Shown here: one piece after another, positions 52,320 to 56,020 of the stretch
How positions within the stretch are numbered: the stretch's first letter is position 1
How the letters are laid out: every line of letters begins with the position of its first letter
The notes under the pieces: model-generated
The model's database searches: none
Seen by the model: the letters and a program-made list of their open reading frames with translations, nothing else
What the model was told of the DNA's origin: nothing
Assembly (NCBI GenBank): GCA_014190575.1
Contig: BJGQ01000012.1
Span: 1-64,000 of the forward strand
Direction of reading: 5' to 3'
Source: Bacteroidota bacterium
GTDB taxonomy: Bacteria; Bacteroidota; Bacteroidia; Chitinophagales; UBA10324
DNA length: 64,000 nt
Translations under genes and position numbers: made by a program

Positions 52320-52448
52320 TTTAAGGATTATTTATTTCCGAATTGATTGCTCCTTAATCTGTCTTCAAATTTTTATTTAACGATTATTGAATAATTCAAT
52401 TCTTCAAATCAAAAGTTACATTTGTTCGCAACCGATAAGGAACTTTAA

Positions 52449-55289
52449 ATGGCTGAAATAAAAACAATAACAACTACTCTGCTTCAGAAAATTTCATTGG
52501 TCATTCCGTGTTATAATGAATCGGCAAGAGTGGCGCAAATGCTTGAAGGCCTTCGTGATTTTTCACGCAACTGGAAAAAAGATTTTGAAATAATTGTTGT
52601 TGATGACGGATGCAAGGATGATACTTCATTGTTGATTGAACAAAGCGATTTATTTAAAGAACTTTCAGTACAAGGAAAATTCAAATTAATAAAACCTGGA
52701 AAAAATCAAGGGAAAGGATTTGCTTTGAAAGAAGGTGTGATGCAGGCTTCAGGCTCTCATGTTCTCACATTAGATGCTGATATGAGTACACGACCAACCG
52801 AAATCAACAATTGGTTAGCCACTCACAAACTTTCTTCCAATGAAATATTAATAGGCTCGCGCGAATTAAAAACTTCCAAAGTCACTGAACGCAAATCGCG
52901 CAACTTCATTGGTAAAATTTTTAATTTAAGTGTTCGGTTTTTTACGCCGCTGAAAAGTCACGATACACAATGCGGATTCAAGTTATATCCAACTGCTGTT
53001 GCAAAAAATTTATTCAGTAAACTCTCGACTTCAGGTTGGGCGCATGATGTTGAGCTATTGTATCACGCACAACTCGATGGAGTGAAAATTATTGAAATGC
53101 CTGTTACCTGGAAAGCAATGGAAGGCAGCAAAATTTCTGTTGGTGTTGATGGTATAAAAATGTTTTTGCAGGTGATGTGGCTGTCACTAAGAATGAAATT
53201 CAATTGGTTTTTCGTTACACCATTTTCTGAAATGAAAAATGCAGAACTCAATAAAAAAAATCAGCCATTCTTTCGTTTTCTGTTTGCAACGCTATGTATA
53301 TTTTTATTTTTTCTAATGACCACAGTAAGTTTTCATTATGGAATTACCGGTGACGATTTAGATCAGAAAGTTTATGGCGAAAAGGTTTTGAATTTTTATA
53401 CTTCATTCGGAAAAGATACTTCGTGCTTGAATCTGAAAGTAGGTAACAAGGAAAACTTGTATCTCTATGGTGGTTTGTTCAGTATGATTTCTGCTGCTGC
53501 AAATCGCTACATAGGTGGTTTGGATGAATATGACATGCGCCACCTGATAAATGCAATCGCAGGATTTTTCGCTATATTATTTACCGGATTGCTTGCACGA
53601 AGATTAGGTAACTGGCTCACCGGATCTCTCGCCATCGTTTTACTTGCATCGTGGCCGCAATTTTTCGGACAAAGCATGAACAACCCGAAGGATATTCCAT
53701 TTGCCCTTACTTACATTCTTACTATTTATTTTTTAGTGAAACTGGTAATGGAACTTCCGCGACCATCAACTCGTACTTGGGTTATGAGTGCCGTGAGTAT
53801 AGCACTTGCAATAAATATTCGTGTTGGGGGATTATTATTGATTGGAATGTTGTTCGTGTTTGTTTTTGGCACCTACATTATTAACTCTGAAAAAAGAAAA
53901 CTGATCAATAAAACAAGCTCAATCTCTTATTTATTAAAGCGATTAATTTTCGTTGCAATCGCAGGATACTTTGGTGGTTTATTATTCTGGCCTTATGGAT
54001 TAATGGGGCCAATGAGTAATCCGCTTATTGCGCTGAAAGAACAAACCAATTTCGCCATGGGCATCGGATTGTTATTTGATGGAAAGCCGATGTCGTCAAA
54101 AGAAATTCCGTGGTACTATATTCCTAAATTGCTGGAGATTACAACTCCTCTTGTAGTGTTATTTGCTGCAATTGCACAATGTGTTTTATGGTATTTCTCA
54201 CGAAAGAAATTTTTGTCCACTCTAACTATACTAATTTCATTCGCAATACTTTTCCCTTGGGCATATGCTGCATACAATCATTCACCATTGTACGATGGAT
54301 TGCGGCAGTTTCTATTCTTAATTCCTTTGATTGCTGTACTCGCTTCATTAACCTGGACTTTTTTAATTACTGGAATGAATCAGAAAATAATTTCTTACAT
54401 CGCAATAGTTGCATTTGCAATTGGGATTGCATTTCCGCTTCGTTTTGCATTTGTAAATCATCCGAACGAATATGTTTACTTCAATGAAATCATTGGAGGG
54501 ATAAAGGGTGCTTACGGAAAATTCGATACCGATTATTACATGAACAGTGTTCGCAAAACTTCTAACTGGTTTAAACAAACTGATATGTTTAAGAATGCTA
54601 CCAAGGAGAAAAAAATCTTACTCGCAACTAATGCGGTTGACCCTGTAAATTGGTACTTCAGAAATGATACCGACAAAGTAAAAATCGTTTACACAAAGTG
54701 GAACAGTGGCAGTGCAAAAACACGCAGTGCGCGTGATTGGGATTATGGAATTTATTTCTCTCGCGATGTTGACCCCGGAATGTTAATCGCCGGCACTTGG
54801 CCATCTGATAAAGCAATTTATAAAAATTCTGCCGATGGTGTACCGTTATCATGTGTTATTGAACGAAAAAACAAATCTGATTACTATGGTTATCAGGAAA
54901 TGCAACGCGACAGTTTGAAAAAAGCCGAATACCTATTTGAAGATGCATTAAAATACAATCCTCAAAACGAAGAAGTAGTTGGTTGGATGGTTCAAGTGAA
55001 ACTTAGTTTGAAAAAAAATAAAGAAGCGTTGAACTACGCGCAACAATTATTAGCGCTTAATCCCCAAAGCGATATGAGTTACATGATGGTTGGCGTTTGC
55101 TATGCCTACACCGGGGATTTATCAAATTCAGAAATGAGTTTGTTAAAAGCAGTTGAATTAAGTCCCATGAATTATCAGGCATATCAATTACTTGCACAAC
55201 TTTATCAACAAAAAGGAGATAAATCTACGGCACAGAGTTATATGAATAAATCGCAGGAGATCAAACAACAATTGCAGGAACAACAATAA
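52449..55289 (+). CDS. Three-part fusion: Alg5-like GT2 glycosyltransferase, GT-C membrane domain, TPR tail
   Basis: 946 residues. Residues 10-245 are a GT2 domain: LVIPCYNESARVAQML, VVDDGCKDDTS, DxD in TLDADMSTRP, GSRELKTSKVTERKSRNFIG and SHDTQCGFKLYP, the last diagnostic of the Alg5/polyprenyl-phosphate-glucose synthase group. Residues about 275-685 hold about 10-11 membrane helices of GT-C/ArnT-PMT type (aspartate pair in GITGDDLDQKV, then PKDIPFALTYI and NIRVGGLLL). Residues 810-940 are TPR repeats (YLFEDALKYNPQNEEVVGWM). Inference: one chain may make a polyprenyl-phosphate sugar and use it on the other membrane face. A TACATTTG box lies at 52417-52424 with no good partner. The methyltransferase gene follows after 8 bases. 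Confidence 0.88.
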   Translation: MAEIKTITTTLLQKISLVIPCYNESARVAQMLEGLRDFSRNWKKDFEIIVVDDGCKDDTSLLIEQSDLFKELSVQGKFKLIKPGKNQGKGFALKEGVMQASGSHVLTLDADMSTRPTEINNWLATHKLSSNEILIGSRELKTSKVTERKSRNFIGKIFNLSVRFFTPLKSHDTQCGFKLYPTAVAKNLFSKLSTSGWAHDVELLYHAQLDGVKIIEMPVTWKAMEGSKISVGVDGIKMFLQVMWLSLRMKFNWFFVTPFSEMKNAELNKKNQPFFRFLFATLCIFLFFLMTTVSFHYGITGDDLDQKVYGEKVLNFYTSFGKDTSCLNLKVGNKENLYLYGGLFSMISAAANRYIGGLDEYDMRHLINAIAGFFAILFTGLLARRLGNWLTGSLAIVLLASWPQFFGQSMNNPKDIPFALTYILTIYFLVKLVMELPRPSTRTWVMSAVSIALAINIRVGGLLLIGMLFVFVFGTYIINSEKRKLINKTSSISYLLKRLIFVAIAGYFGGLLFWPYGLMGPMSNPLIALKEQTNFAMGIGLLFDGKPMSSKEIPWYYIPKLLEITTPLVVLFAAIAQCVLWYFSRKKFLSTLTILISFAILFPWAYAAYNHSPLYDGLRQFLFLIPLIAVLASLTWTFLITGMNQKIISYIAIVAFAIGIAFPLRFAFVNHPNEYVYFNEIIGGIKGAYGKFDTDYYMNSVRKTSNWFKQTDMFKNATKEKKILLATNAVDPVNWYFRNDTDKVKIVYTKWNSGSAKTRSARDWDYGIYFSRDVDPGMLIAGTWPSDKAIYKNSADGVPLSCVIERKNKSDYYGYQEMQRDSLKKAEYLFEDALKYNPQNEEVVGWMVQVKLSLKKNKEALNYAQQLLALNPQSDMSYMMVGVCYAYTGDLSNSEMSLLKAVELSPMNYQAYQLLAQLYQQKGDKSTAQSYMNKSQEIKQQLQEQQ

Positions 55290-55297
55290 CGATAATT

Positions 55298-56020
55298 ATG
55301 GATTTAAAAGAACTGGAATCAGGAGTCAATCCGAATACGCATTGGTATTATCAATCGAAGAAATGGCCGTTGGTTCGTTTTGTGAAAAAGATTTTTCATG
55401 AACAAAAAAGAAAAGTTGTTTTAGTTGATGTGGGTTCAGGCTCTGGGTTTTTTATGTTTGAATTATTAAAGCTCATGCCGGAGATGATTGATAAAGTGTG
55501 GCTCGTTGATATTAATTACACTGAAGCTGAAGTAAAAGAGACCATTGGACAACAAGTTGAAAAAACAATCAACCTCCCTCCTATTATTGAAAATGCAGTA
55601 GTTGTAATGATGGATGTGCTTGAACACATTGAAGATGATTTTGCAATATTGAATGAAATAAAAAAACGCTGTGTTGGAAAAAATTATTTCTTCATCACTG
55701 TTCCTGCCTTTATGGATTTGTGGAGCGGACATGATGTGTATCTCGGTCACTATCGCCGCTATACTTCTAAAACTTTAAACTCATTATTAACGAATGCAAA
55801 ATTTTCGAAGTATAAAATTTTCTATCTCTTCGCCGGTATTTTTCCAATGGTGTGGAGCATTCGTAAGCTGACTAAAAAAAGTAAGGAAACGCAAAGCAAC
55901 ATGAAACCATCGCACCCGATTGTGAACTCAGTTCTTCGGGCTTACAATTCGTTTGAAATGAATTTCAGTCGCATGAATAGATTGTTTGGTGTGACATGCA
56001 CGGCTGAGGGAGAAATTTAA
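55298..56020 (+). CDS. Class I SAM-dependent methyltransferase
   Basis: 240 residues with the Rossmann core: motif I LVDVGSGSGFFMFELLKLMP (about 41-60), VWLVDINYTEAE (acidic loop), VVMMDVLEHIEDDFAIL (motif II, UbiE/BioC-like DVLEHI), and FITVPAFMDLWSGHDVYLGHYRRYTSKTL. That last segment, P-x-LWSxHD with HYRRY, is common to methyltransferases beside polyprenyl-phosphate glycosyltransferases. It lies 8 bases after the GT2/GT-C/TPR fusion, so the two are one unit. The probable substrate is a lipid-linked sugar or glycan end, by context only. Confidence 0.87.
   Translation: MDLKELESGVNPNTHWYYQSKKWPLVRFVKKIFHEQKRKVVLVDVGSGSGFFMFELLKLMPEMIDKVWLVDINYTEAEVKETIGQQVEKTINLPPIIENAVVVMMDVLEHIEDDFAILNEIKKRCVGKNYFFITVPAFMDLWSGHDVYLGHYRRYTSKTLNSLLTNAKFSKYKIFYLFAGIFPMVWSIRKLTKKSKETQSNMKPSHPIVNSVLRAYNSFEMNFSRMNRLFGVTCTAEGEI

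Follow-up and report, generated by a model that had tools for sequence, protein, structure and literature searches.

When a glycan is built in two steps across a membrane, the steps are normally ascribed to separate proteins, and the hand-over of the lipid-linked sugar between them is left unassigned. Can one polypeptide load a sugar onto a lipid on one face of the membrane and use it on the other? This question is raised by a fused glycosyltransferase gene in the window analysed here, a 64,000-nucleotide stretch of Bacteroidota bacterium DNA (contig BJGQ01000012.1, our C12, of a 3.19 Mb genome in 91 contigs). The gene (52449..55289; all window features are on the + strand) starts with ATG and encodes 946 aa. 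On the evidence of the open reading frame list, Pfam and an AlphaFold2 model, its product comprises a GT2 (glycosyltransferase family 2) domain, a membrane part of the GT-C glycosyltransferase fold and a tail of tetratricopeptide repeats (TPRs). The protein is probably a Gtr-type machine in which both glycosylation steps are fused, GtrB being combined with Gtr(type)/GtrC; the donor is probably methylated in the cytosol and its sugar transferred in the periplasm.

A donor synthase fold and a GT-C fold in one chain

The GT2 domain (52482..53240, residues 12-264) is of the polyprenyl-phosphate sugar synthase type by its Pfam match (PF00535, Glycos_transf_2, residues 16-189, E 3.1e-20), by structure comparison and by the model. 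The AlphaFold2 model, built on a 30-row alignment of relatives, has a predicted local distance difference test score (pLDDT) of 88.7 and a predicted template modelling score (pTM) of 0.86; in its secondary structure the last element of the domain is a 34-residue helix (231-264). VIA-align 2, the structure comparison used for this model, superposed residues 10-250 on DPM synthase (5mlz) with a Z of 24.4, a root-mean-square deviation (rmsd) of 2.6 and 25% identity over 227 aligned residues. Matches to 9bhe (ArnC, Z 22.0) and 9nyd (20.1) likewise place the domain in the GT-A fold of the DPMS/ArnC/GtrB kind. Its DxD metal-binding motif, as in the DPMS, GtrB, ArnC and Alg5 synthases, is D109-A-D111 (52773..52781), with both aspartates present in all 35 intact GT2 domains (29 fused, 6 separate). 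A second motif, DTQCGFKLY (residues 172-180, 52962..52988), presumably resembles that of eukaryotic Alg5; its D172, Q174, C175, G176, F177 and K178 are kept in 35/35. The full set of invariant positions in these domains comprises D53, K89, D109, D111, R138, D172, Q174-K178 and W197-D200. Over residues 16-230, a Deinococcus plasmid match annotated as dolichyl-phosphate beta-glucosyltransferase shows 35.9% identity. DPM synthase, Alg5 and GtrB thus share fold and DxD with the fused domain, and the model suggests that the GT-C part here replaces the membrane helices that GtrB, ArnC and their kin carry themselves.

The GT-C part (53265..54458, residues 273-670) has 11 predicted transmembrane (TM) helices, read off the secondary structure of the model, and matches PMT_2 (365-502, E 9.9e-9) and PMT (339-503, E 2.2e-6). 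Z values of 19 to 26 against chains of ALG12, ArnT, STT3 and Pmt4 indicate the conserved membrane fold of GT-C_A; the individual matches include ALG12 (9s6t, Z 26.0, 426 aligned, rmsd 5.2), ArnT (5f15, Z 24.8, 405 aligned, rmsd 6.4) and Pmt4 (9i5l, Z 23.7, 378 aligned, rmsd 3.6). The assignment rests on fold and Pfam, since a GT-C profile had zero matches among PDB sequences up to E 10. TMTC and TMEM260 structures are not among the best 50 VIA-align matches, a result that rules out nothing.

Seven positions first noticed in 30 aligned relatives are invariant across 72 GT-C sequences: D302, P403, N412, D415, R458, P515 and R619; W514 is tryptophan in 70/72. D302 (53352..53354), in the first periplasmic loop, is the expected catalytic residue. 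It is the acidic residue that GT-C_A enzymes carry in this loop, and the following residue 303 is D in 26 sequences and E in 46. An NPKD motif lies at the start of TM4 (residues 412-415, 53682..53693; K414 in 69/72), and R458 (53820..53822) lies between TM5 and TM6. D302, D415 and R458 are therefore kept in 72/72, where mutated catalytic residues across homologues would have told against the first-pass annotation of this DNA. The structure matches support the joining of a donor-synthase fold to a GT-C fold which that annotation had proposed, and the reading frame and Pfam confirm the single three-part chain of 946 residues with a methyltransferase gene 8 bases on (fusion stop TAA at 55287-55289, methyltransferase ATG at 55298).

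The predicted active sites lie on opposite faces of the membrane

The two active sites were placed by topology, not by the distance between them. Loops assigned to the cytosol carry a mean net charge of +1.07 to +2.57, those assigned to the periplasm carry -5.13 to +1.0, and the linker between the GT2 domain and TM1 is neutral at +0.13 (30 sequences in each case). Because the model and the loop charges (positive-inside rule) point the same way, the GT2 site is predicted to be cytosolic, and D302, D415 and the TPR tail are predicted to be periplasmic. The placement of the sites on opposite faces, another proposal of the first-pass annotation, is supported by this prediction; a model with both sites on one side would have told against it. 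Beyond the last membrane helix, a predicted periplasmic mixed alpha/beta domain (54459..54875, residues 671-809) carries a conserved YFN...GG...DYY pattern, with N679 and D695 present in all 71 readable sequences. The TPR tail (54876..55283, residues 810-945) shows Pfam TPR families within 821-941 (best E 6.4e-10) and helical hairpins in the model. It is also found in relatives without a GT2 domain, which assigns it to the GT-C module; it may choose the acceptor, as the first-pass annotation proposed.

The fusion recurs beside split and lone forms

GT-C profile matches (E <= 1e-30) occur in 160/396 genomes across the order and in 8/395 across the phylum, which is not the phylum-wide presence of a general Bacteroidota O-glycosylation transferase. 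We read 71 GT-C loci, to which the tree adds the window genome's own paralogue (L067) as the 72nd; each of the 29 fusion loci comes from a different genome among the 396 drawn. The intact three-part fusion was found at 29/71 loci, separate GT2 and GT-C genes as same-strand neighbours at 6, a degenerate or unrecognisable N-terminal extension at 12, and the GT-C-TPR part alone at 24. Long-frame genomes other than G740 were covered and shorter frames were sampled; as the match list stopped at weak matches, the phyletic survey gives the intact form in at least 29 of the 396 genomes of the order. Relatives with named records are mostly Chitinophagaceae, Chitinophaga, Chitinophagales or Bacteroidetes metagenome-assembled genomes. 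Neither a faulty join in the assembly nor read-through by chance explains the fusion: the three-part chain with intact GT2 is open in 29 genomes, and D109 and D111 (35/35 intact GT2 domains) and D302, D415 and R458 (72/72 GT-C sequences) are conserved. The same parts also exist as separate adjacent genes, which at the sequence level makes the fusion optional.

Does this GT2 domain belong to this GT-C? Whole-genome scanning of 35 genomes with a GT2 profile (subtype threshold 289 bits or more) found the subtype in 4/4 genomes with an intact fusion and 3/3 with split genes. It occurs in 1/7 genomes with a degenerate or unrecognised N-terminus (G771, where it stands alone some 4 kb away from a second copy of the GT-C) and in 0/21 genomes with a lone GT-C, where the best matches reach about 116 bits or less. 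By these counts the GT2 subtype travels with the GT-C, which itself persists in genomes that lack the subtype.

The paralogue L067 (G000:C16:12481-14082) is an unfused GT-C of 644 aa that shares 33% identity with the window protein over the GT-C part. Among plasmid relatives, 0/54 matching records cover 80% of the query at one place.

Repeated decay of the fused GT2 domain

The DxD and DTQCGF motifs are lost at L036-L038, L049, L105-L108 and L110. Profile comparison still traces these N-termini to GT2 at L036-L038 (E 2.2e-13) and L105/L106/L108 (6.3e-22); L110 retains a Pfam GT2 match (7.3e-14) and L049 only a weak one (1.2e-4). The N-terminus of L115-L117 was also considered as a degenerate GT2, for which profile comparison gave no support (E 0.13); these loci keep the label C_degenerate in the tree and the methyltransferase counts, and serve as the negative control for profile comparisons. 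On the GT-C tree, L105-L108 and L110 are nested among intact fusions. This is a quick tree that has Shimodaira-Hasegawa-like approximate likelihood ratio (SH-aLRT) support only and drew warnings of long branches. We therefore count two well-placed independent decays (L105-L108 and L110) and up to four in all.

Identities within groups fit decay of the domain once it is inactive. In 20 intact pairs chosen by hand, GT2 and GT-C diverge to a similar extent, their identities differing by -17 to +7 points with a mean of -2. Within the degenerate groups, the N-terminus is 36% identical against 71% for the GT-C in the L036/L037 pair and 83% against 96% in the L105/L106 pair; all such pairs give 36/71, 37/73, 80/95, 83/96 twice and 98/100. 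Unrecognised N-termini give 21/70 and 23/40. Because the N-termini are more diverged than the GT-C within groups, the inactive GT2 decays while the GT-C holds its residues. Separate GT2 genes adjoin three of the degenerate fusions (L037:11044-11778, L038:11044-11778 and L110:9541-10284), and no GT2 gene lies within three genes of L049 or L105-L108. A neighbour of the degenerate fusion at L036 (L036:3922-5016) has a Pfam match to the STELLO glycosyltransferases (E 3.7e-10), a family presumably named from plants.

A methyltransferase accompanies the fused gene

The gene downstream of the fusion (55298..56020) encodes a class I S-adenosylmethionine (SAM) methyltransferase of 240 aa (PF13489, Methyltransf_23, E 1.4e-7; model pLDDT 81.9, with the class I fold). 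An orthologue 49-94% identical to it lies directly downstream on the same strand in 17/27 intact-fusion loci, the window counted and L032 and L099 left out at contig ends. In contrast, it is beside 0/24 lone GT-C genes within three genes on each side. Other methyltransferase families were found with Pfam downstream at L047, L057, L113, L130 and L131, and upstream at L046, L054, L056, L058, L099, L121, L135 and L138. A profile made from 21 such neighbour sequences, an origin that biases counts upward and favours near positions, places a methyltransferase within two genes in 42/71 GT-C loci: 21/29 intact, 6/6 split, 4/12 degenerate or unrecognised and 11/24 alone. Per position, with the same bias, the counts are 44/268 at +-1/+-2 and 4/475 at +-3 to +-8. 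The association noted in the first-pass annotation is thus a conserved link in relatives.

The link also takes other forms. The gene directly upstream of GT-C-TPR is a GT2-methyltransferase fusion at L115:4591-6129, L116:4737-6269 and L117:9271-10752, although the methyltransferase match of the last is weak (2.9e-4). A TAATG stop/start overlap was seen at L035. Judged by eye, the methyltransferase has no hydrophobic N-terminus and should therefore work in the cytosol, and together with the GT2-methyltransferase fusions this suggests methylation at the nucleotide-sugar or lipid-linked stage. The first-pass annotation had expected a capped or methylated glycan; methylation of the sugar or the lipid-linked donor in the cytosol fits the data better, and capping after transfer fits less well.

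A two-step mechanism and its alternatives

In the mechanism that we favour, the N-terminal GT2 domain would transfer the sugar of a nucleotide sugar to polyprenyl phosphate on the cytosolic face, as its fold and conserved residues suggest. The neighbouring cytosolic methyltransferase would probably methylate the sugar before or just after lipid loading, and a flippase encoded elsewhere would turn the lipid-linked sugar over. The GT-C part, with D302 in its first periplasmic loop, would then pass the sugar to a periplasmic acceptor, which may be a protein bound to the TPR tail or else a glycan of the envelope. Fusion would couple the making and spending of the donor, yet would be optional, the GT2 domain having decayed more than once. 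Of the claim that one chain both makes and spends the donor, the architecture and the predicted opposite faces stand; the degenerate GT2 domains and the 0/21 lone-GT-C genomes speak against a need for the fusion in the persistence of the GT-C.

A broader proposal is that GT2, methyltransferase and GT-C form one pathway, whose donor, a polyprenyl-phosphate O-methyl sugar, is methylated in the cytosol and then put on periplasmic proteins by the TPR-bearing GT-C. The parts would have been fused in two ways (GT2-GT-C and GT2-methyltransferase), and the fused synthase would have decayed repeatedly, presumably once another synthase took over. We hold this chain of steps to be possible but rather unlikely.

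Several observations weigh against the two-step mechanism. No flippase, which the first-pass annotation had suggested seeking in the neighbourhood, is linked to the fusion locus, and the sole GtrA homologue of the genome is on another contig. Among 14 tested genomes, 9 have a GtrA homologue and 5 have none. Eight of the 29 intact-fusion loci lack a methyltransferase within two genes (L032, cut by a contig end, is among them), and the neighbour-derived profile favours near positions. The methyltransferase fold names no substrate: the Z values of its matches to CmoM, METTL6, RebM and an unnamed type 12 methyltransferase span no more than 2 units. Since 24/71 loci and the paralogue in the same genome lack this GT2, the GT-C can draw on some other source of donor, and the product of the fused GT2 might go to different enzymes.

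These last points lead to a reading in which the fusion merely anchors or co-expresses the GT2 domain, which would feed a general pool of polyprenyl-phosphate sugars while the GT-C uses another donor. The lone GT-C genes, the 0/21 genomes and the decay of the fused GT2 in several lineages with a conserved GT-C would all suit it; nevertheless, the GT2 subtype seldom occurs other than in fusion with this GT-C or beside it, and the split genes remain adjacent in 6 loci, so we consider it improbable. Less probable still is that a degenerate GT2 has been retained for a separate live GT2 to dock on, as a pseudo-glycosyltransferase scaffold for which fusion would be a matter of complex building. Such an arrangement could account for the separate GT2 genes directly beside the degenerate fusions L037, L038 and L110, but not easily for L049 and L105-L108, and the domain drifts fast after active-site loss (36 vs 71, 83 vs 96) where intact pairs are alike.

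The choice of acceptor is much more evenly balanced. An envelope glycan (lipopolysaccharide or exopolysaccharide), as in Gtr and ArnT, with the TPR tail binding a partner protein, would leave the two-step mechanism as it is and compete only with its protein-acceptor branch; we give this variant a little less than an even chance. The genes upstream of the fusion include a heptose-7-phosphate-kinase-like gene (TIGR02198, 339.4 bits against a cut-off of 345), whose family recurs in 11/31 loci, and an ATP-binding cassette (ABC) exporter nearest to PglK/MsbA, which would suit an envelope glycan. Among the loci of other families compared, however, the upstream genes do not recur, and TMTC1-4, tied to protein O-mannosylation in PMC7801869, are likewise built of a GT-C with TPRs in the lumen.

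Relation to known systems

In Gtr and teichoic acid systems, according to PMC7389260, a C55-phosphate-linked sugar is made by a cytosolic GT2 and transferred by an extracytoplasmic glycosyltransferase. GtrA-GtrB-GtrX (Gtr(type), GtrC), GtlA/GtcA/GtlB and CsbB/GtcA/YfhO share this two-step scheme with the fused protein. In those systems, however, synthase and transferase are separate and the set includes a GtrA-type flippase, whereas here a single chain that ends in TPRs combines the two enzymes, and no flippase is linked. Because a flippase is not part of its gene set, we regard the fused protein as a Gtr-type variant working like GtrB plus GtrC, not as a strict member. ArnC and ArnT, the structural matches to the two halves (Z 22.0 to 9bhe and 24.8 to 5f15), are separate proteins, and ArnT has lipid A as its acceptor and is not known to carry a TPR tail.

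The animal O-mannosyltransferases TMTC1-4 are described in PMC7801869 with 11 TM helices, a cytosolic N-terminus, a DD motif in the first lumenal loop and lumenal C-terminal TPRs. By model and loop charges, the fused protein is predicted to share this plan, with 11 TM helices, its N-terminus inside and its TPRs extracytoplasmic. It differs in its fused GT2, which is not described there for TMTCs, and in the DUF1736 segment that is described there (PMC7801869) but is absent from its Pfam families at E <= 1. Mycobacterium tuberculosis Ppm1 also joins a donor synthase to another membrane part (PMC3485146), and annotations name GT2/GtrA bifunctional proteins; in neither is the partner a donor-using GT-C.

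That synthase and donor-using GT-C are normally separate proteins, as the first-pass annotation stated, is the rule in PMC7389260 and PMC3485146. No description of a GT2-GT-C fusion was found in the open-licence PMC literature, judged by titles and the starts of abstracts. One chain with both sites on opposite faces would be a defined object for measuring donor hand-over, flipping and use, and its recurrent fusion, splitting and decay would provide natural controls. A 2025 review gives the time at which Bacteroidota glycans are methylated as unknown (PMC12871550); the methyltransferase link offers a testable answer.

Gene surroundings

The sequence TACATTTG (52417-52424), 24 bases ahead of the start codon of the fused gene, fits TAnnTTTG, which we take to be the Bacteroidota -7 promoter box, and the gene may have its own promoter. 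A scan for sigma-70 promoters and terminators gave no excess relative to shuffles. The upstream kinase-like gene, ABC exporter, phosphodiesterase and RDD gene are common to the genus, and at five more loci (L034, L039 and L041-L043) the kinase gene stands immediately upstream.

At L049, L055, L056 and L122-L124 the GT-C gene is followed immediately by a TMEM260-like gene (PF11028), which is three genes off at L054 and L058. Kinship between the GT-C and this neighbour was considered and none was detected (hhalign E 0.028, probability 1.8%). DUF2723, presumably the older name of the PF11028 family, had no match as a term in the open-licence PMC literature searched. Of 60 related genomes, 56 encode the TMEM260-like protein (about 1000 aa; G000:C13:10617-11144); of the 14 controls, Bacteroides ihuae alone does. 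According to the 2025 review (PMC12871550), the oligosaccharyltransferase that serves O-glycosylation in Bacteroidota is undiscovered, and the TMEM260-like family is a candidate for it.

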